Assembly (NCBI GenBank): GCA_020725195.1
Contig: DYFL01000001.1
Coordinates: 1-64,000 of the forward strand
Direction of reading: 5' to 3'
DNA length: 64,000 bases
Source: Hydrogenophilus sp.
Lineage (GTDB): Bacteria > Pseudomonadota > Gammaproteobacteria > Burkholderiales > Thiobacillaceae
The notes under the pieces are model-generated. The model did no database searches and had not been told where the DNA came from. It worked only from the letters and a program-made list of their open reading frames with translations. Of the stretch, positions 25,605 through 36,701 are shown in pieces. The position numbers and the translations under genes are program-made. Position 1 is the first letter of the stretch. Every line of letters starts with the position of its first letter.

Positions 25605-27104
25605 ATGAAACTCCCCCGCTTGATGTTTGCATGGTCCTTCCTCGTGACGCTGCCGGCCGCCGCCTGGTCGGCGGACGCCCTCTCGCTCTGGGGGGCCATG
25701 GAGCGGGCCGCGCAGTCCAATCCGGAGATCAGGGCGCGCGAGGTCGAGGTGAGGAAGCAGGAGCTCGAACAGGAGATCGCCCGCGGTCAGCATCTGCCCA
25801 AGATCGACCTGAATGCCAGCTACACCCGTTACGCCTACCCGAGCCTGGTGACCCCGATCCGCCAGGCCGGGGTCTTCCCGCCGCTGGACCGCGACATCGC
25901 CGGCATCGGCCTGGCCCTGAACCTGCCGCTCTATGCCGGCGGCAAGCTGGTGGCCGGGGAGCTGCTCGCCGCGCAGGGGCGCGATGCGGCCTTCCAGGCC
26001 TTGCGCGCCACGGGCCAGGAGTTGCTGTTCAACGTCGCCGCCACCTTTACCAAGGCGCTGCAGTTCCGGCATCTGGCGGGCGCGCTCGACTCCCGCATCC
26101 GCACTCTGGAGCAGGAAGAGCGCAACACGGTTCAAAGAATCGAGCAGGGCCGGGCCGCCCGGCTGGAGTTGCTGCGGCTGCAGACCCAGCTCACGCAGGC
26201 ACGGCACGACCGGCTGACGGTGGCGCAGGGCGAGAAGGATGCCCTGGCCCTGCTCGCCTCCCTGCTGGGGACGTCTGGGAAGCTGCCGCCCCTGGAGGAA
26301 ATCGATGCGGCCCACCCGGTCGTGCCCGTCACGCTGGCCGAGGCGCTCGGAAGGGCCACGGCGAACCGCCCCGATCTGCTTGAGCTGCGGGCCCAGGGCA
26401 AGGCCGCCGAGGCCAAGACCGCCATTGCCCGCGGCGACCGGCGCCCCCAGGTCAATTTGCTGGGCAAGATCCAGGAGACGAGCGGCGGCGACTTGGACGG
26501 CTATGGCGACTGGCAGTTAGGGGTGGAGCTTTCCATGCCGCTCTACGACGGCGCCATCCGGGACAAGCGGCTGGACCAGGCCCGGATGGAGCAGCGCCAG
26601 AGCGAGATGCGGCTCGAAGATGCACAAAACCGCCTGGCCTCTGAGGTCGAGCAGGCGCTGGGCAGGCTGACCGAGGCCCGATCCAGGCTGGCGGTGGCCA
26701 ATCAAGGCCAGGTGGAGGCTGAGGAGGCCCTACGGATCGAGAGCTTGCGCTACGAGTCGGGCGAGTCCACCGCCACGGACCTGCTCGCCGCGGAGACCGC
26801 GTTCTGGGATGCCACCGTCAACCGCATCCAGGCGAACTACGATGTCACGGTGGGCGAGGCGCGCCTGTTGCGGGCCATGGGGGAGTTGTCTGCGCACAGC
26901 TTCAAGCCGGGCGCGGCCGGCAAGGCGGCCGGCGCCGGCCTGGTGTCGCCCGAGCCGGCCCCTTTGGGTCTTTACCTGTCTTGGCACGACAGCGCACTCG
27001 CCTGCGCCCAAGAAGGAGAGCGCATGCCGCTGCGCACCGCTACGCCCGGTGTCCGTGGCCGGCTTGAACCGGTCCGTTCCCTCAGTCAAGGAGTCGAGCA
27101 ATGA
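25605..27104 (+). CDS. TolC-family outer-membrane efflux protein
   Basis: This is a 499-residue outer-membrane channel of a tripartite efflux system. A signal peptide (1-23, ending AAAWSA) precedes two OEP repeats with long heptad-rich helices and the beta-barrel strands (LALNLPLYAGGKL, VELSMPLYDGAIRDK). The C-terminal 60 residues after ARLLRAMGEL are an extra, low-complexity tail. GGAGG lies 8 nt upstream of the ATG. It heads an operon and overlaps the HlyD-type gene by 4 bp. Confidence 0.9.
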   Translation: MKLPRLMFAWSFLVTLPAAAWSADALSLWGAMERAAQSNPEIRAREVEVRKQELEQEIARGQHLPKIDLNASYTRYAYPSLVTPIRQAGVFPPLDRDIAGIGLALNLPLYAGGKLVAGELLAAQGRDAAFQALRATGQELLFNVAATFTKALQFRHLAGALDSRIRTLEQEERNTVQRIEQGRAARLELLRLQTQLTQARHDRLTVAQGEKDALALLASLLGTSGKLPPLEEIDAAHPVVPVTLAEALGRATANRPDLLELRAQGKAAEAKTAIARGDRRPQVNLLGKIQETSGGDLDGYGDWQLGVELSMPLYDGAIRDKRLDQARMEQRQSEMRLEDAQNRLASEVEQALGRLTEARSRLAVANQGQVEAEEALRIESLRYESGESTATDLLAAETAFWDATVNRIQANYDVTVGEARLLRAMGELSAHSFKPGAAGKAAGAGLVSPEPAPLGLYLSWHDSALACAQEGERMPLRTATPGVRGRLEPVRSLSQGVEQ

Positions 27105-28105
27105 AGAAACCGATTGCGATCGCAGGGCTGGCGCTGGCCGCCGTCGCCGCTGTGGTGCTCTGGCAAGTCAGGCCGTGGTCGCCCGAGGCGGACACCGACA
27201 GGGTCGTCGCCTCCGGCACGGTGGATGCCACCGAGGTCGCGATCGCCTTTCGCGTATCCGGCACGCTCAAGAGCCGGCCCGTCGGGGAGGGCAGCCCGGT
27301 CGGCCCCGGCGACCCGATAGCCGCCCTGGACGAGCGCGAGGCGGCGGCCAGGGTGCGCCAGGCGGAGGCGGCCCGGTCGACCGCCGAGGCGCGCCTGAAG
27401 GACCTGCTGCAGGGCTACCGCCCCCAGGAGATTGCCGAGGCCCGGGCGCAGGCCGCACAGGCGCGCGCCAACCTGGAGAACCTGATGGAGGAGGCCCGCC
27501 GTTCGGAGGCCTTGTTCCAGGGCGGCGCCGTCAGCCGCCAGCGCCGCGACAAGGACCTGACCGCGGCGTCGGTGGCGGCGGAGCAGCGTCAGGCCGCCGA
27601 GGCCAGGCTGCGCCTGCTGGAAAGCGGCTATCGCCCTGGGAGCATCGAAGCCGCGCGGGCCCAGTTGAAGGAGGCGCAGGCCGCCCTCGAGGCCGCGCAG
27701 GTCGCCCTGGAGGACCTCGAGGCGAAGAGCACGCTGGCCGGCGTGGTGACCCGCACCCACGCGGAGGTGGGCGAGACCGTGGGCGCTGGGCGGCCGGTGG
27801 CGACCGTCACCGACATCTCCCGGCCCTGGGTGAGGGTCTACATCCCGGAAAACCAGATCGGCAAGGTGCGCATCGGGGCCCCCGCCGTGGTCAAGGTGGA
27901 CACCTACCCCGAGCGTGAATTCGCCGGCCGGGTGAGCTATGTCTCCTCCGAGGCGGAGTTCACGCCCAAGAACGTGCAGACTCAGGAGGAGCGGGTCAAG
28001 CTGGTGTTCGCGGTGAACGTGACCCTGGACAACCGCGACGGCACGCTCAAGCCGGGCATGCCGGCCGACGTCTGGATCGCGGCCGGGGACGGGGGCGGCC
28101 GGTGA
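27101..28105 (+). CDS. HlyD-family membrane fusion protein
   Basis: This 334-residue periplasmic adaptor is anchored by an N-terminal membrane segment (6-22). It has the biotinyl-lipoyl half motif VASGTVDATEVAIAFRVSG, a long coiled-coil hairpin (about 75-200), and a beta-barrel domain (TVTDISRPWVRVYIPE). The layout resembles YbhG, the adaptor of the YbhFSR exporter. It overlaps both neighbours (ATGA and GTGA junctions). Confidence 0.9.
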   Translation: MKKPIAIAGLALAAVAAVVLWQVRPWSPEADTDRVVASGTVDATEVAIAFRVSGTLKSRPVGEGSPVGPGDPIAALDEREAAARVRQAEAARSTAEARLKDLLQGYRPQEIAEARAQAAQARANLENLMEEARRSEALFQGGAVSRQRRDKDLTAASVAAEQRQAAEARLRLLESGYRPGSIEAARAQLKEAQAALEAAQVALEDLEAKSTLAGVVTRTHAEVGETVGAGRPVATVTDISRPWVRVYIPENQIGKVRIGAPAVVKVDTYPEREFAGRVSYVSSEAEFTPKNVQTQEERVKLVFAVNVTLDNRDGTLKPGMPADVWIAAGDGGGR

Positions 28106-28965
28106 TCCCTGCGGCCGACCTCTTCGAGACGGACAGGCAGACGCTGCGGCTGCTGGTGCGGCGCGACCGCGCGGCGCTGCTGCTCCATGCCGGCGCCGTC
28201 GTGGCGGTGGTCGTGGTGGGCGAGGCGCTCGCCTTTCATCTGGGCATGGCCGACCGCCTGGGATTCGTGCCGCTGATGCTGCGCGGCCTGGTCTACCTGC
28301 TGCTGAGCACGGCGATGTGGGCCGCCCTGCTGCGCGCCAACCGCCGCAGGGTGGTCGGCCTCATGCAGGAAAGGCACCGGAGCTACGAGGCCGTGCTGTT
28401 CGCCTACGACAGCGCCATCGCGCTCAAGGACAGCTACACCGGCGGCCACGGGCGCCGGGTGGCGCGCTATGCCCATCTGATCGCCACGGCCATGGGGCTA
28501 TCCGGGGCGGAGGCGGAGGCGGTGAGAGAGGCGGCCCTGCTGCACGACCTGGGCAAGATCGGCATGCCCGACCGCATCCTCAGCAACCCCTCGCGGCTCG
28601 ATGCCGCGGATTTCGCCAGTGTGCAGAGACACCCCGGCGCCGGCGCCGACATCCTCGAGGCCCTCCCGCCGCTGCGCCGCCATGCCCCGGCGGTGCGCCA
28701 TCACCACGAGCATTACGACGGCAGCGGCTACCCGGACGCGCTGATCGGCCTGCAGATCCCCTTCGAGGCACGCATCATCGCGGTGGCCGACGCCTTCGAC
28801 GCCATGAGCAGCCACCGCAGCTACCGTCGGGCCATCCTGCCCGGCGACGCCCTGGAGGAGATCGCCCGGGCCGCCGGCAGCCAGTTCGACCCCAAGGTCG
28901 TCGCCGCGGCCACGCAATCGCCCTGCCGCGACCGCCTGTGCGCGGCGTGGGAGGACATGACATGA
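28102..28965 (+). CDS. Membrane-anchored HD-GYP protein inside the efflux operon
   Basis: This 287-residue protein has two membrane segments (about 25-45 and 57-78) and a C-terminal HD-GYP domain. The metal-site HD is in ALLHDLGKIGMPDRIL (near 148), and the signature HHHEHYDGSGYP is intact near 200. HD-GYP proteins hydrolyse cyclic di-GMP, so an active phosphodiesterase is likely. The GTG start overlaps hlyD, and the stop overlaps the ABC ATPase gene (ATGA), so it is translated as part of the exporter operon. I know of no standard exporter with such a subunit. Confidence 0.88.
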   Translation: MIPAADLFETDRQTLRLLVRRDRAALLLHAGAVVAVVVVGEALAFHLGMADRLGFVPLMLRGLVYLLLSTAMWAALLRANRRRVVGLMQERHRSYEAVLFAYDSAIALKDSYTGGHGRRVARYAHLIATAMGLSGAEAEAVREAALLHDLGKIGMPDRILSNPSRLDAADFASVQRHPGAGADILEALPPLRRHAPAVRHHHEHYDGSGYPDALIGLQIPFEARIIAVADAFDAMSSHRSYRRAILPGDALEEIARAAGSQFDPKVVAAATQSPCRDRLCAAWEDMT

Positions 28966-29891
28966 GCGGCGTCGCCATCCGCACCCAGGGCCTCGGCCGC
29001 GCCTTCGGCGCGCTGTGGGCGGTGCGCGGGCTGGATCTGGAGGTGAGGCGCGGCGAGATCTTCGGCCTGGTCGGCCCGGACGGCGCCGGCAAGACCACCA
29101 CCATGCGCCTGCTGACCGGCATCCTGGCGGCCAGCGAAGGCGAGGCCGAGGTGGCGGGCTTCCCCATCCAGGGTGGCGAGGAGGCGATCAAGGCCCGCAT
29201 CAGCTACATGTCGCAGCGCTTCGGCCTCTATGGCGACCTCAGCGTGGAGGAGAACCTGCGCTTCTATGCCGACCTCTACGAGGTGCCGCGTCGCGAGCGC
29301 GAGCCCCTGGAAGAGCGCCTGCTCGGCTTCTCCAACCTGACGCCCTTCCGCAAACGCCTGGCGCGCAACCTCTCGGGCGGCATGAAGCAGAAGCTGGGGC
29401 TGGCCTGCGCCCTGATCCACAAGCCGGAGATCCTGTTCCTCGACGAGCCCACCAACGGCGTCGATCCGGTGTCGCGGCGCGACTTCTGGCGCATCCTCTA
29501 CGCCATGCTCAAGGAAGGGGTGACGATCTTCGTCTCCACCGCCTACCTCGACGAGGCCGAGCGCTGCTCGCGCGTCGGCCTGATGCACCGCGGCCGCCTG
29601 ATCCGGTGCGACACGCCGCAGAGGCTCAAGCAGGGCATCCCCGGCCTGCTGCTGGAGCTGGAGACCGACCGGCCGCGTGCCGCCCGGGAGATGCTCGCCC
29701 GCCACCTGGGCTGGAACCGCGTGAGCCTGTTCGGCGGCCTGCTGCACCTCTACGCCGGCGACGAGGCGGAAGCGGGGCAGGCCAGGCGCGTCCTGCACGA
29801 GGCCGGCATCGCCGTGCTGGCGCAAAAGGCGATCACCCCGACGCTGGAGGACGTGTTCATCCATCAGGTCACGCGGGACGAGGAGCCATGA
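28962..29891 (+). CDS. ABC transporter ATP-binding protein, first of two
   Basis: This is a 309-residue ABC ATPase. It has Walker A GPDGAGKTTT (Asp replaces the usual Asn), signature LSGGMKQKLGLA, Walker B ILFLDEPTNGVDP and the switch region. It matches one half of YbhF/RbbA-type exporters, in which two ATPase units act with ABC-2 permeases. The start overlaps the HD-GYP gene. A REP-like repeat separates it from the second ATPase gene. Confidence 0.92.
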   Translation: MSGVAIRTQGLGRAFGALWAVRGLDLEVRRGEIFGLVGPDGAGKTTTMRLLTGILAASEGEAEVAGFPIQGGEEAIKARISYMSQRFGLYGDLSVEENLRFYADLYEVPRREREPLEERLLGFSNLTPFRKRLARNLSGGMKQKLGLACALIHKPEILFLDEPTNGVDPVSRRDFWRILYAMLKEGVTIFVSTAYLDEAERCSRVGLMHRGRLIRCDTPQRLKQGIPGLLLELETDRPRAAREMLARHLGWNRVSLFGGLLHLYAGDEAEAGQARRVLHEAGIAVLAQKAITPTLEDVFIHQVTRDEEP

Positions 29892-29909: not shown

Positions 29910-30035
29910 GAACGAGTGCCTCGCACTCGTTCACCCTCACCCGCCGCTACGCGTCGGCCTCTCCCGAAGGGAGAGGCGAAAAACTCCCCTCTCCCTTCGG
30001 GAGAGGGCAGGGTGAGGGTGCCAGGCGAAGCCTGG
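29910..30035. repeat. REP-like palindrome cluster between the two ATPase genes
   Basis: Hairpin GAACGAGTGC/GCACTCGTTC (29910-29932) is followed by CACCCTCACCC...GGGTGAGGGTG arms that enclose two CCTCTCCC/GGGAGAGG palindromes. A small hairpin CCAGGC-gaa-GCCTGG (30021-30035) closes the block. Related blocks occur at 35153, 44274 and 45975. Confidence 0.8.
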
Positions 30036-30080: not shown

Positions 30081-31037
30081 ATGAATCAAGAATACGCCGT
30101 GGAAGTGCGCGAGCTGACCCGGGTGTTCGGCGATTTCGTCGCCGTCGACCGCATCTCGCTCACCGTGGAAAAAGGCCAGGTGTTCGGCTTTCTCGGCCCC
30201 AACGGCGCGGGCAAGTCCACCACCATCCGCATGCTCTGCGGCCTGCTCCTGCCCAGTTCCGGCGAGGGCCGGGTAGCGGGCTTCGACGTCATGACCGAGT
30301 CCGAGACCATCAAGCGGCACATCGGCTACATGTCGCAGAAGTTCTCCCTCTACGACGACCTCACCGTGGAGGAGAACATCGACTTCTACGCCGGCATCTA
30401 CAACGTGCCCAGGATGAAGCGCGGCGAGCGCAAGGACTGGGTGCTGGAGATGGCGGGGCTCACCGACAAGCGCAAGGACCTCACCGGCTCCCTGGCCGGC
30501 GGCTGGAAGCAGCGCCTGGCGCTGGGCTGCGCGGTGCTGCACGAGCCGACGATCCTGTTCCTCGACGAGCCCACCTCGGGGGTGGACCCGCTGTCACGGC
30601 GCCAGTTCTGGGACCTGATCGCGCAGATGTCGCACCGCGGCACCACCGTCTTCGTCACCACCCACTACATGGAGGAGGCGGAATACTGCGACGAGCTGGC
30701 GCTGATCTACCGCGGCCGCATGATCGCCAAGGGCCGGCCTGCCGAGCTCAAGACCCTGATCCCGGAAGACATCCTCGAACTGCGTGTCGAGCGGCCGTTC
30801 GAGGCGCTGGAGCAGCTCGAATCCTCGGGGCTGGTGAAGGATGTCGCCCTGTTCGGCGACAACCTGCATGCGGTGGTCGACGACGCCGAGGCGGCCGCCG
30901 CCGCGGTGGGCGGGTTCCTCGCCGAACGCGGGCTGGCGGTAGAGGGCATTGCCCGCGTTCTCCCCTCGATGGAGGACGTGTTCGTCTCCCTGATCGAGCT
31001 CGAGGACCGCCGGCGCGAACAGGAGGCGCAGCCATGA
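30081..31037 (+). CDS. ABC transporter ATP-binding protein, second of two
   Basis: This is a 318-residue ABC ATPase with Walker A GPNGAGKSTT, the Q-loop segment YMSQKFSLYDDLTVEEN, and Walker B ILFLDEPTSGVDP. The signature reads LAGGWKQRLALG, with Ala in place of the usual Ser. The ATG at 30081 is chosen because the domain starts there; longer readings run into the REP block. It overlaps the permease gene by 4 bp. With the first ATPase it would form the split equivalent of YbhF. Confidence 0.92.
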   Translation: MNQEYAVEVRELTRVFGDFVAVDRISLTVEKGQVFGFLGPNGAGKSTTIRMLCGLLLPSSGEGRVAGFDVMTESETIKRHIGYMSQKFSLYDDLTVEENIDFYAGIYNVPRMKRGERKDWVLEMAGLTDKRKDLTGSLAGGWKQRLALGCAVLHEPTILFLDEPTSGVDPLSRRQFWDLIAQMSHRGTTVFVTTHYMEEAEYCDELALIYRGRMIAKGRPAELKTLIPEDILELRVERPFEALEQLESSGLVKDVALFGDNLHAVVDDAEAAAAAVGGFLAERGLAVEGIARVLPSMEDVFVSLIELEDRRREQEAQP

Positions 31038-32158
31038 AGCCGCGCGCCTTCTCCTGGATCCGCCTCAAGGCGCTGGTGAAGAAGGAGTTCATCCACATCC
31101 TGCGCGACCCGCGCTCGCTGGCGATGGCCTTCCTGATGCCGCTGATCCTGCTGATCCTGTTCGGCTACGCCATCACCATGGACATCAAGACGCTCAACCT
31201 GGCCGTCTACGACCAGGACAAGAGCGCGGCCAGCCGCAACTATGTGGAGGGCTTCCCGGCCTCCAGCTACTTCACGGTCGTGGCCTCGGTGGACAGCTAC
31301 GCCGCGGCGCGCGAGCTGATCGACCGCGGTGCGGCCCAGCTCGCCCTGGTGATCCCCCGGCATTTCGCCCGCGACCTGGAGCAGGGCCGCACGGCCCAGG
31401 TGCAGTTGCTCGCCGACGGCTCGGACGCCAACACCGCGACCATCGCCCTGGGCTATGCCGAGGCCATCACCCACCGCTACAGCGCGGGGCGGCAGGACAC
31501 GAAGGTCGAACTCGCCGTGGATAACCGCCTGCGGGTCTGGTACAACGCCGAGCTGAAGAGCCGCTGGTTCATCATCCCCGGTCTGATCGCCGTCATCATG
31601 ACCGTGATCACCGCGCTGCTCACCTCGCTCACCGTGTCGCGCGAGTGGGAGAGCGGCACCATGGAACAGCTCATCGCCACGCCGGTGCAGCCGATCGAGC
31701 TCTTCCTCGGCAAGATGGCGCCCTATTTCGTGATCGGCGTGGCCGACGTGCTGTTCTCGGTGGCCATGGGCGTATGGGTGTTCGACGTGCCGCTCAGGGG
31801 CAGCTTCGCCTTCCTGCTCGGCGTCACCGCCATGTTCCTGGTGGGGGGGCTGAGCCTCGGCATCATGGTCTCCACCATCGCCAAGTCCCAGCTGGTGGCG
31901 AGCCAGTTGGCGATGGTGGCGACCTTCCTGCCCGCCTTCCTGCTCTCCGGCTTCCTCTACTCCATCGACAACATGCCGCGCGCGCTCCAGGTGGTCACCC
32001 ATGTGGTGCAGGCGCGCTATTTCGTCGAGGTGCTGAAGAACATCTTCCTCAAGGCGAGCCCGCCCGCCTTCGTGGCGGACGATCTGATCTTCCTTGCCCT
32101 GTTCGCGGTGGTGGTGTTCGCCGTCGCGCTGGGCAAGTTCCGCAAGAAACTGAGCTGA
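31034..32158 (+). CDS. ABC-2 permease, YbhS-like
   Basis: This is a 374-residue membrane protein of the ABC-2 family. An N-terminal segment (about 25-47) precedes a large periplasmic domain (50-180), followed by five membrane segments. The family pattern REWESGTMEQLIATPVQPIE is present, as is KEFIHILRDPRSLAMAFLMP at the N-terminus. It overlaps the ATPase gene upstream and probably dimerises with the next permease. Confidence 0.9.
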   Translation: MKPRAFSWIRLKALVKKEFIHILRDPRSLAMAFLMPLILLILFGYAITMDIKTLNLAVYDQDKSAASRNYVEGFPASSYFTVVASVDSYAAARELIDRGAAQLALVIPRHFARDLEQGRTAQVQLLADGSDANTATIALGYAEAITHRYSAGRQDTKVELAVDNRLRVWYNAELKSRWFIIPGLIAVIMTVITALLTSLTVSREWESGTMEQLIATPVQPIELFLGKMAPYFVIGVADVLFSVAMGVWVFDVPLRGSFAFLLGVTAMFLVGGLSLGIMVSTIAKSQLVASQLAMVATFLPAFLLSGFLYSIDNMPRALQVVTHVVQARYFVEVLKNIFLKASPPAFVADDLIFLALFAVVVFAVALGKFRKKLS

Positions 32159-32169
32159 CGGGGCGCACC

Positions 32170-33297
32170 ATGTGGGAACGCATCTATCGCATGCTGGTGA
32201 AGGAGTTCATCCAGGTCTTGCGCGACCCGCGCATGAAGGCGCTGATCTTCGTCATGCCGGTGGTTCAGCTGATCATGTTCGGCTATGCCGTGACCACCGA
32301 CGTGGACCACATCAAGACGGCGGTGTGCGACCTCGACAAGAGCCCGCAGAGCCGGGCGCTGATCGAGCGCTTCACGGCCTCCGGCTATTTCACCGTGGTG
32401 GAGAACACCGACCGGCCCGAACGCCTGGGCGAGCTGCTCGACCGGGGCCGGGCGATCATGGGCATCCAGATCAACCGCGGCTTCGCCGAGGATCTGCGCT
32501 CGGGCCGGCCGGCTTCGATCCAGACGATCGTCGACGGCACCGACTCCAACACCGGCACGGTGGCGATGGACTATGCCCAGCGCATCACCCAGGCGTACTC
32601 CCGCGAGTGGTCGCCCCCGTCGGGGCTCGACGAGGCGGCCGCGGCGCAGACGGCCCCCGTCGAGCTGCGCACGCGGGCCTGGTTCAACCCCGACCTGAAG
32701 AGCCGCTACTACAACGTGCCCGGCGTCATCGCCGTGGTGGTGCTCCTGATCTCGCTGCTGCTCACCGCCATGGCGATCGTGCGCGAGCGCGAGATCGGCA
32801 CCATGGAACAGTTGATGGTGACGCCGATCCGGCCCCTGGAGCTCATCCTCGGCAAGACCCTACCCTTCGTGCTGATCAGCTTCGTCGACGTGCTGGTGGT
32901 GACCGCGATCGGGGTGAGCTGGTTCGAGGTCCCCATCCACGGCAGCCTCGGGCTGCTGCTGCTGGGTTCGGGGCTCTATCTGATGTCCACCATCGGGGTG
33001 GGGCTCTTCATCTCCACCATCTCCCACACCCAGCAGCAGGCGCTGATGTCCTCGTTCTTCTTCTACCTGCCGGCGGTGCTGCTCTCCGGCTTCATGTTCC
33101 CGATCTCGAACATGCCGGAGCCGGCGCAGTGGCTCACCTATCTCAACCCGCTGCGCTACTTCCTGGAGATCATCCGCGACATCTTCCTCAAGGGCAGCGG
33201 ACTGGAAATCCTCTGGCCCCAGTTCGCCGCCCTGGCGGTCCTCGGTGCCGCGCTCCTCACCATCAGCTCGCTTCGCTTCCAGAAAAGGATGGCCTGA
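32170..33297 (+). CDS. ABC-2 permease, YbhR-like
   Basis: This is a 375-residue ABC-2 permease parallel to its upstream neighbour: KEFIQVLRDPRMKALIFVMP at the N-terminus, a periplasmic domain, and REREIGTMEQLMVTPIRPLE before the membrane block. The ATG at 32170 is 11 bp after the previous stop. The pair completes the exporter; the substrate cannot be read from sequence, although relatives export drugs and other amphiphiles. Confidence 0.9.
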   Translation: MWERIYRMLVKEFIQVLRDPRMKALIFVMPVVQLIMFGYAVTTDVDHIKTAVCDLDKSPQSRALIERFTASGYFTVVENTDRPERLGELLDRGRAIMGIQINRGFAEDLRSGRPASIQTIVDGTDSNTGTVAMDYAQRITQAYSREWSPPSGLDEAAAAQTAPVELRTRAWFNPDLKSRYYNVPGVIAVVVLLISLLLTAMAIVREREIGTMEQLMVTPIRPLELILGKTLPFVLISFVDVLVVTAIGVSWFEVPIHGSLGLLLLGSGLYLMSTIGVGLFISTISHTQQQALMSSFFFYLPAVLLSGFMFPISNMPEPAQWLTYLNPLRYFLEIIRDIFLKGSGLEILWPQFAALAVLGAALLTISSLRFQKRMA

Positions 33298-33298
33298 C

Positions 33299-33739
33299 AT
33301 GAAACCCGACCGCACTCGATTTCCAAGCCTCGTCGCCTCGGTCTTCCTGATGCTCGCCGCGGGCGGTGCACAGGCCGCCGAGCCGCTCGCCCTGCAGAAG
33401 ATCATGAAGGACCTGGGCAGGCACATGCAGACCGTCGCCGATGGCATCTCTCGCGAGGACTGGGAGCTGGTCGCGAAGACCGCCCCCCTCATCGCCGAGC
33501 ACCCCCAGCCGCCCTTCGGCGAGAAGGCGCGCATCCTGGGCTTCGTCGGCGCCAACATGGGCAAGTACAAGGCCCACGACGGCCGGACCCACGACGCCGC
33601 CCTGGCCCTGGGCAGGGCCGCCAGGCTCAAGGACGGCCCGGGCGTGATTGCGGCCTTCGCGGAACTCCAGACCCGTTGCCACGACTGCCACCGCGAGTTC
33701 CGCAGGCCGTTCGTGGAGCACTTCTACGGGGCGCGCTGA
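33299..33739 (+). CDS. Monohaem c-type cytochrome (c'/c-556-like)
   Basis: This is a 146-residue periplasmic cytochrome. It has a signal peptide (1-27, ending GGAQA), four predicted helices and one C-terminal haem site CHDCH (CxxCH) near residue 130, the layout of cytochrome c' and c-556. No obvious axial Met is placed as in c-556, so the sixth ligand is uncertain. The gene starts one base after the permease stop, so it belongs to the efflux operon. Confidence 0.82.
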   Translation: MKPDRTRFPSLVASVFLMLAAGGAQAAEPLALQKIMKDLGRHMQTVADGISREDWELVAKTAPLIAEHPQPPFGEKARILGFVGANMGKYKAHDGRTHDAALALGRAARLKDGPGVIAAFAELQTRCHDCHREFRRPFVEHFYGAR

Positions 33740-33765: not shown

Positions 33766-34350
33766 ATGCACACAGACGACACGCAGGGATTCAGGCCGGA
33801 GCATCTGCAGGCGTGGTGGGAGGCCACGCGCTACTACCTCTTCGCGGATCCGGAAGCCCTGCCGGCCGCCGCCGCCCGGGCCGAAGACGACTGGGCGCCG
33901 CCCGGGACGCACAGCCAGGGCGGGCGTAAGCGATACCTCGCCCGCGCGCGGGGCCGGCTCATGCGCGCGGCCCGGTGCGGGGCGCCGGCCGATCCGCTGC
34001 GGGAGCTGGAATGCGCCTTCCAGCGGCTGATCGCCTTCATCGCCAGGCATCCCGACGTGCCCAGGCGCCTGTTGGCGTGGCTGGCGCAGGATGAGGATGC
34101 CCGCCTGCAGCGGCGCGTCCGGCGGGTCGTCGGCCACTACGCCGCCCGCCTGGCCCGGATCATCGACCGGGCCAAGCAGCAGGGCCTGGTCAGGGCCGAC
34201 GTCGAACCGCAGTCCTCGGCGATGCGCCTGGTCGGCCTGATCCAGGGGCTGGCGCTCAATCTCGGCCCCCGGCCCCGGGAGACGCTGTTCGGGGAGGCCG
34301 TCAGCGCGTTCGCCTTCTACCGGGCCGGACTGCTCCGGTCTCCGGAGTGA
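33766..34350 (+). CDS. TetR-like ligand-binding domain without DNA-binding domain
   Basis: This is a 194-residue protein. Residues about 75-190 resemble the C-terminal domain of the TetR protein at 36891: both have DPx-x-LE-x-xF, then a RHPDVPRRL/RHPAIPRLL block, then an SxxxRLVGLIQGL/ATMLYVSLIQGL block. The first ~70 residues contain no helix-turn-helix. GGAG lies 6 nt upstream of the ATG, and the gene follows the cytochrome gene by 26 bp. It could sense the efflux substrate or form inactive dimers with a TetR repressor; this is inference. Confidence 0.62.
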   Translation: MHTDDTQGFRPEHLQAWWEATRYYLFADPEALPAAAARAEDDWAPPGTHSQGGRKRYLARARGRLMRAARCGAPADPLRELECAFQRLIAFIARHPDVPRRLLAWLAQDEDARLQRRVRRVVGHYAARLARIIDRAKQQGLVRADVEPQSSAMRLVGLIQGLALNLGPRPRETLFGEAVSAFAFYRAGLLRSPE

Positions 34351-35152: not shown

Positions 35153-35265
35153 CACCCCCTCTCCCTCCGGGAGAGGGTGGGGGTGAGGGGGTGACGCCCG
35201 TCATGGCGCCTTTCGGCGCCCAAGCCCTCACCCGGCTTCGCCACCCTCTCCCGGGGGGAGAGGGT
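35153..35265. repeat. REP-like palindrome pair between two lipoprotein genes
   Basis: ACCCCCTCTCCC...GGGAGAGGGT (35153-35178) and ACCCTCTCCC...GGGAGAGGGT (35241-35265) form two hairpins, joined by inverted GGTGAGGGG/CCCTCACCC and a central GGCGCC-tttc-GGCGCC hairpin. There is no run of T. Confidence 0.8.
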
Positions 35266-35333
35266 CAAGTGCAGTCGTTTCGGATCGATAAACGGTGGCA
35301 CGACAGAACGCCGCGCCGGGACGGGAGGGCCGC

Positions 35334-36701
35334 ATGAACTACCTCAATCTGCTGATTCTGGCCGCCGTCCTGGCGTTCACGGGCTGCGCCCACTATCCGC
35401 CGAACCCGCCCCTGGCCCGGCACGACCCGGACTCCGGCTACCGATTCAAGAATCTCGCCAGCCCCGATAACTCCGACAGCCTGCTGGTCGTCGTCACCTT
35501 CTCGGGCGGGGGCACGCGCGCCGCCGCCCTGGCCTACGGGGTGCTGGAGCAGCTCGCGCAAACGGAGATCGTCTGGGAAGGAAAGAAAAAGCGCCTGCTC
35601 GACGAGGTCGACATCATCTCCTCGGTGTCCGGCGGCAGCTTCACCGCCGCCTACTACGCCCTCTACGGCGAGCGCATCTTCAGCGACTTCGAGGCGCGTT
35701 TCCTGAAGCGCGACGTCCAGGGCGAGCTCACCCGCAAGATCCTCGCGCCGGCCAATCTGGTGCGGGGCGCCTCGCCCAAGTTCGGCCGGATCGATCTGGT
35801 GGCCGAGTATCTCGACGCCGAGATCTTCCACCACGGCACCTACGGCGACCTGGTCGAGTCGGGGCGCCGTCCCTACGTCATGGTCAATGCCAGCGACATG
35901 AGCCTGGGCACGCGCTTCGAGTTCACCCAGGAGCAGTTCGACCTGCTCTGCTCCGACCTTGCGTCGTTTCCGCTGGCGCGGGCGGTCGCGGCCTCCAGCG
36001 CCGTGCCCATCGTGTTCAGCCCGCTCACCCTGCGGAACTACGCCGGGCGCTGCGGCTACCAGGCGGCGGCGCCGGCCGAGGCGCCCGGCGGCCCGTCGTC
36101 GCGCCGGATCTACAAGGCCGCCGAGGTGGGGTCCTACCTCGATGCCGAGGCCAGGCCCTATATCCACCTCCTCGACGGCGGCATCACCGACAACCTGGGC
36201 CTGCGCGGGATGCTCGATCGAGTGGCGAGCCGCGACGGCCCCATGGGCCTGGCCCGCGCCCTGAGCCTCGGCCGGCTGCGCAAGGCGGTGCTGATCGTCG
36301 TCAATGCCGAGACGGCCCCCGACCTGTCCTTGGACCGCAGGGAGGAGGTGCCTACGGTCGCCCAGGTGTTCAGGGCCATCAAGGACATCCCCATCAACCG
36401 CTATTCGTTCGAGACGACGGAACTGCTGAAGGCGAACTTCGAGGAGTGGGCCAGGCAGGCGCGTGCGCAAGGGGCCGATCTCCCACCCGGGGATTCGGCG
36501 GAGGCGGGTTTCGATTTCCATCTGGTCGAAGTGACCCTGGATGCGATCCAGGACCCCGCCGAGCGCGATGACTTCCGCGCCATCCCGACCTCGTTGAGCC
36601 TGCCTCCGGATACGGTCGACCAACTGCGCGCGCTCGGCCCCCGATTGATGCGCGAGTCGGCATCCTATCGGGGCCTGCTGCATGGGCTGTCGCGCGATTG
36701 A
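35334..36701 (+). CDS. Patatin-like phospholipase lipoprotein
   Basis: This 455-residue protein has a lipobox (FTGC near residue 18) and a patatin domain. The oxyanion motif is SGGGTRAAALAYG, the nucleophile elbow is SVSGGSF (GxSxG-type), and the catalytic Asp is in LLDGGITDNLG. An acyl hydrolase or lipase at the envelope is expected. GGGAGGG precedes the ATG. The TetR gene that follows may control it. Inserts in the second half (about 230-260) differ from plant patatins. Confidence 0.87.
   Translation: MNYLNLLILAAVLAFTGCAHYPPNPPLARHDPDSGYRFKNLASPDNSDSLLVVVTFSGGGTRAAALAYGVLEQLAQTEIVWEGKKKRLLDEVDIISSVSGGSFTAAYYALYGERIFSDFEARFLKRDVQGELTRKILAPANLVRGASPKFGRIDLVAEYLDAEIFHHGTYGDLVESGRRPYVMVNASDMSLGTRFEFTQEQFDLLCSDLASFPLARAVAASSAVPIVFSPLTLRNYAGRCGYQAAAPAEAPGGPSSRRIYKAAEVGSYLDAEARPYIHLLDGGITDNLGLRGMLDRVASRDGPMGLARALSLGRLRKAVLIVVNAETAPDLSLDRREEVPTVAQVFRAIKDIPINRYSFETTELLKANFEEWARQARAQGADLPPGDSAEAGFDFHLVEVTLDAIQDPAERDDFRAIPTSLSLPPDTVDQLRALGPRLMRESASYRGLLHGLSRD

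Follow-up and report, generated by a model that had tools for sequence, protein, structure and literature searches.

An HD-GYP phosphodiesterase-type gene conserved between the adaptor and ATPase genes of an ABC-2 exporter operon, a probable link between cyclic-di-GMP signaling and export

The position of an HD-GYP gene inside an exporter operon raises the question of whether a signaling enzyme has become part of a transport machine or simply shares its transcript. The usual substrate of HD-GYP proteins is cyclic di-GMP (c-di-GMP), a messenger whose effect on drug tolerance is known mostly to act via transcription. To address this question, we analyzed a stretch of 64,000 nucleotides of Hydrogenophilus sp. 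DNA (contig DYFL01000001.1), hereafter the window, on the plus strand of which the genes run in the order tolC-hlyD-HDGYP-ABC-ABC-permease-permease-cytochrome c', with the HD-GYP gene third (Table 1). A first-pass annotation of the same DNA had described an intact HD-GYP gene with two membrane segments, joined on both sides to its exporter neighbors, and both points hold. The reading frame begins with GTG and has no internal stops; the hlyD stop and the HD-GYP start share the letters GTGA (28102-28105), and the HD-GYP stop and the start of ABC ATPase 1 share ATGA (28962-28965), each a 4-nt overlap. The tolC-type gene and hlyD overlap by 4 nt as well.

Table 1. Features of the exporter operon and its downstream neighbor in the window
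Feature	Position	Strand	Evidence and remarks
tolC-type outer membrane efflux protein (OEP), first gene of operon	25605..27104	+	Pfam OEP 5e-47; TIGR01844 2.6e-45
hlyD / YbhG-like periplasmic adaptor	27101..28105	+	Pfam HlyD_D23 4.6e-21; NCBIfam PRK03598 2.6e-65, below its cut-off
HD-GYP phosphodiesterase-type protein, 287 aa, two N-terminal TM helices	28102..28965	+	Pfam HD_5 1.3e-38
ABC ATPase 1 (YbhF N-half / DrrA / RbbA-like)	28962..29891	+	Pfam ABC_tran 5.2e-28; RbbA 1.4e-77, below cut-off
ABC ATPase 2 (YbhF C-half / DrrA-like)	30081..31037	+	Pfam ABC_tran 7.5e-31; drrA 2.3e-87, below cut-off
ABC-2 permease 1	31034..32158	+	Pfam ABC2_membrane_3 1.2e-50
ABC-2 permease 2	32167..33297	+	Pfam ABC2_membrane_3 3.1e-56
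Cytochrome c'-like protein	33299..33739	+	Pfam Cytochrom_C_2 6.4e-06; position conserved
TetR C-terminal-domain-like protein	33766..34350	+	Pfam TetR_C_13 3.4e-06 only

The operon contains, colinearly, the HlyD adaptor, two ABC domains and two ABC-2 permeases of a YbhGFSR/RbbA-type ABC-2 exporter. It shares these parts with the Escherichia coli exporters of that type and differs from them in that the ATPases are two genes, that it has its own tolC and cytochrome c' genes, and that the HD-GYP gene lies between adaptor and ATPase. The exporter genes score below the cut-offs of the NCBIfam equivalog models, so no named equivalog was assigned. E. coli YbhFSR is involved in tetracycline and dye efflux (PMC7190983), and the family resemblance suggests a multidrug cargo here.

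Several other genes accompany exporters of this kind. The cytochrome c'-like gene directly follows permease 2 in six of them (the window's genome, G000, and G324, G220, G130, G353 and G080; loci L131-L135). At least three genomes, G130 and G080 among them, encode a TetR-C-like protein beside the exporter (in addition to the window, L133:3213-3800 and L135:4912-5496), and Pfam detected no TetR_N helix-turn-helix in the proteins of the window, G130 and G080. A patatin-like phospholipase gene is located close to the exporter or immediately after it in three genomes, one of which belongs to another order (window 35295-36701, L135:1650-3002 and L202:13422-14990); it might hint at a lipid-like cargo. 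The window also has inverted pairs of a palindromic repeat, CCTCTCCCTTCGGGAGAGG, between the two ABC genes (29958-30006) and downstream (35158-35263), with four matches where 0.01 are expected. This element looks like an insertion in the window's genome, because the two ABC genes overlap in relatives (e.g., L131, L132 and L134).

HD-GYP genes are common as such, with nine places in the window's genome matching the protein, and it is the position in an exporter operon that is unusual. The first-pass annotation had proposed a search for the same gene string elsewhere, and the string proved to recur in six other genomes, spanning families and two orders. Within the same family, 117 genomes searched with the protein gave no second full-length ortholog. 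Among 399 genomes of the order, a search with HlyD found six relatives at 70 to 73% identity (G324, G220, G130, G353, G488 and G080), the remaining matches reaching at most about 46%. Four of the six (G324, G220, G130 and G353), all from one other family of the order, carry the HD-GYP gene in the corresponding slot; in G488 and G080 hlyD is joined directly to the first ABC gene. A profile built from the five orthologs then in hand gave no more in the 399 genomes of the order and, in 369 genomes of the class, another four full-length proteins (G597, G720, G844 and G847). The nine orthologs score at least 290 bits (E of 1e-86 or lower) and all other HD-GYP proteins at most 204. No ortholog at an E of 1e-60 was found beyond the window's genome among 299 genomes sampled across the phylum; the genome profile search scores few candidates per genome at its first pass, so misses are possible. 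Scanning genome contigs with the single protein gave only generic HD-GYP proteins (34 to 53% identity), the orthologs coming from the genome searches, and none of the 229 plasmid records matching HD-GYP covers 80% of the protein, so that the idea of spread on plasmids was rejected.

In G597 and G720, which represent another order and were its only genomes searched, the gene again lies between hlyD and the first ABC gene, bringing the filled slots to seven genomes. The HD-GYP gene overlaps the ATPase gene by 4 nt in all seven; it overlaps hlyD by 4 nt in five and lies 1 nt from it in two. The idea of an insertion unique to the window's genome, which the first-pass annotation had paired with an inactive product as the outcome that would tell against its reading, is thus ruled out by the six further genomes, and the predicted catalytic residues are invariant, as described below. 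Efflux genes also neighbor the two orthologs that lie elsewhere, which counts in favor of a link to export. The G847 gene, on a short contig, comes about 200 nt after two genes, a fused ABC-ABC-permease (RbbA-like) and a second permease. G844 has an ABC exporter with no HD-GYP gene in the slot, and its ortholog is encoded on the opposite strand some 1.8 kb downstream of it, with an RND pump gene on one side and a gene for a trypsin/PDZ protease on the other; a weak cytochrome c' homolog (30% identity) closes this RND cluster at its far end.

The recurring position goes beyond chance, both by the six other genomes with a filled slot and by a comparison with other HD-GYP genes. At 149 other HD-GYP loci, an exporter-type gene occurs within 1.5 kb in four and exporter genes flank both sides in none, a rough figure since flanks were short at many of the loci. 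Similarly, 23 more distant exporters (L108-L130) have the adaptor gene followed by the ATPase gene with no HD-GYP gene between them. On a Planctomycetota contig, a generic, nonorthologous HD-GYP gene (L093:206-1802) precedes an ABC ATPase gene on the same strand by about 220 nt. Rfam gave no matches on L200, L202 and L203. In G597, a 378-aa protein encoded between tolC and an RND pump gene and lacking a Pfam or NCBIfam match (L202:5050-6186; single-sequence AF2 model with a pLDDT of 38) was considered as a degenerate GGDEF protein, which would make a second c-di-GMP gene, and rejected, as its score against a GGDEF-type profile does not exceed that of shuffled copies; that profile comprises 22 fragments of loci selected solely on a GGDEF/GGEEF motif, and one or more of the fragments look unrelated.

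The protein itself has the makings of an active enzyme. Its cytoplasmic HD-GYP domain spans residues 105 to 268 (Pfam HD, E = 1.4e-17, in addition to HD_5), with the HDLGKIG, HHEHYDGSGYP and ARIIAVAD motifs intact. When active-site residues of the orthologs were mapped onto PmGH (PMC4159591), the seven metal ligands common to both HD-GYP subgroups (H116, H148, D149, H177, H201, H202 and D230) were invariant in all nine. The window protein also keeps D110/K152, Y210 and R239, and PmGH residues D183, K225, D308, GYP, I294 and R314 have identical counterparts in every ortholog; the K317 position is Arg or His. In PmGH, D183 and K225 are both required, and mutation of the matched residues abolishes activity (PMC4159591). 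Since the position of the eighth PmGH ligand, E185, is Tyr (Y112) in all nine, the orthologs are placed by sequence in the Y/F subgroup; membership in the E/D-T-G trinuclear subgroup of PmGH and TM0186 was rejected, there being no E/D bridging ligand. A degenerate enzyme is ruled out on residues, all seven shared ligands being kept, and the protein probably breaks down c-di-GMP. One substitution counts against this picture: the Asp of DGxGYP is Asn in two of the nine orthologs (G324 and G220).

In the membrane part, two hydrophobic segments cover about residues 25 to 46 and 55 to 79, and the AF2 model (nine sequences, pLDDT 79) predicts a helix from residue 4 to 46, a short turn and a second helix from 55 to 113 that runs from the membrane into the HD-GYP domain, with a pLDDT of 63 to 66 in the linker region. 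The periplasmic part is a loop of about 8 to 10 residues with no sensor domain. Because so little is exposed to the periplasm, the protein is unlikely to sense a periplasmic ligand alone. Mean identity across orthologs is 0.40 to 0.47 in the membrane part versus 0.61 in the HD-GYP domain, and E41, G54, P57, R61 and Y65 of the membrane pair are invariant. Foldseek with the AF2 model gave DvhD, PA4781 (two metals) and the PmGH HD-GYP domain as best matches (9rbz, 4r8z and 4mcw; E about 1e-8), while the closest solved structure by sequence is V-cGAP3 (1e-38). The protein resembles the phosphodiesterases PmGH, RpfG and PA4781 in its HD-GYP fold, the seven shared metal ligands, the D/K pair and the GYP loop, and differs from them in having Tyr for E185, two TM helices only, no REC, GAF or PAS domain, and a place in an exporter operon.

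Phylogenetic comparison provides a further view of the association. The ten close exporters form one supported clade (99/96 in the HlyD tree and 99/99 in the ABC1 tree), within which exporters with and without the gene are intermixed; both a single early gain followed by losses and repeated gain fit the trees. The nine HD-GYP orthologs likewise form one clade (99/100) relative to 25 other HD-GYP proteins, and the pairs G130/G353, G324/G220 and G597/G720 are seen in both the HD-GYP and HlyD trees. The gene is under purifying selection, with dN/dS (NG86) of 0.10 to 0.58 among orthologs (0.58 for the closest pair), values that, with dS partly saturated, are evidence of constraint rather than a measure of rate. 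Among relatives, HD-GYP identity is 56 to 63%, compared to 84 to 89% for ABC1 and 87 to 90% for the permeases, a divergence that weakens the case for a tightly bound subunit. The slot is filled in seven of the ten exporters, and because three closely related exporters (G488, G080 and G844) lack the gene there, the HD-GYP protein is an accessory part with which the pump can dispense.

Taken together, the evidence is best explained by a catalytically competent, membrane-tethered phosphodiesterase of the Y/F subgroup, probably with two metals, that would serve the tripartite ABC-2 exporter (TolC-HlyD-ABC-ABC-permease-permease) as its own accessory subunit, a reading to which we assign a probability of roughly 0.45. 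The tight gene spacing suggests that the protein would be made in a fixed ratio with adaptor and ATPase. We infer c-di-GMP as the substrate, physical contact and the direction of coupling; as the TM pair passes into a long helix leading to the HD-GYP domain, contact with the exporter within the membrane may switch the enzyme, and hydrolysis beside the pump would couple messenger level to pump state by the logic of a trigger phosphodiesterase. The first-pass annotation had proposed that messenger breakdown is wired to exporter assembly; this is supported in part, by the recurring gene string, purifying selection and invariant catalytic residues, while the wiring itself and a local action at the pump would be further steps. 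The most specific form of this idea, in which the two-helix protein is a stable subunit that gates transport by both binding and destroying c-di-GMP, is speculative and, in our estimate, doubtful.

The chief rival is simple co-expression with no contact, in which the phosphodiesterase would be made when the exporter is induced, the general c-di-GMP pool would fall and the chemically stressed cell would change its lifestyle. We consider this unlikely but the alternative to take most seriously, as it accommodates an intact active site, overlapping genes in a single operon, exporters that do without the protein, its fast divergence relative to the transporter subunits and the G844 ortholog sitting with an RND pump instead. 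What co-expression alone leaves unexplained is why the slot between adaptor and ATPase is kept across orders and why five residues of the membrane pair are invariant. Far less probable is a neutral passenger that fell into the operon and has no role in export; its rarity overall and its absence from three of the ten exporters would suit such a gene, whereas a slot conserved across two orders, purifying selection and an invariant active site would not.

Two further alternatives concern what the domain does with its ligand. The substrate could be another nucleotide, either a different cyclic dinucleotide such as 3'3'-cGAMP or else pGpG. V-cGAP3 is a 3'3'-cGAMP phosphodiesterase that also has Tyr for E185, and the bimetallic fold is like that of PA4781; the V-cGAP3 match, however, reflects overall HD-GYP similarity, R239 and Y210 are counterparts of PmGH substrate contacts, and c-di-GMP is what such domains usually cleave, making a different substrate improbable. 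Slightly less probable still is a nonenzymatic receptor like DvhD or LapD, in which binding of c-di-GMP would shift the stalk helices and switch a membrane partner. The predicted long stalk helix of a membrane-anchored HD-GYP protein recalls this arrangement, and DvhD, among the best structural matches, works in this way (PMC13090378). DvhD, however, is inactive, having lost the HD and HH metal ligands that are invariant here, and the exporter-linked protein has no periplasmic dCache domain.

Known systems lend the dedicated-phosphodiesterase reading some context. DvhD, an inactive receptor with SQ for HD and with dCache and PAS domains, controls a protease (PMC13090378) and, like LapD, belongs to an adhesin-secretion operon. 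The likeness is a membrane-bound c-di-GMP-type module (HD-GYP in DvhD) within a surface-protein operon, which shows by analogy that operons related to secretion can incorporate an HD-GYP module. Large adhesins, rather than ABC-2 exporters, are what Lap-type systems serve, and the window protein keeps all seven shared ligands. PdeR and PdeL, the trigger phosphodiesterases, have EAL domains and target transcription factors or promoters (PMC5052742); the likeness would be one of proposed principle, an active phosphodiesterase whose contact with its target depends on c-di-GMP turnover. A full-text literature search, judged by the titles and abstracts listed, turned up no account of an HD-GYP gene located within an exporter operon of this kind, which is not proof of absence. 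Each half of the system is known, and the combination looks new.

Signaling and export are probably linked at this operon, as judged from sequence and gene order. The HD-GYP orthologs constitute a small, testable subfamily, with nine members here, and very similar exporters that have or lack the gene serve as natural controls. If the enzyme is exporter linked, it would form a direct hardware link from a lifestyle messenger to a pump, and if it is indeed a trigger phosphodiesterase for that pump, the export of drugs or metabolites would be directly controlled by the messenger of biofilm formation.
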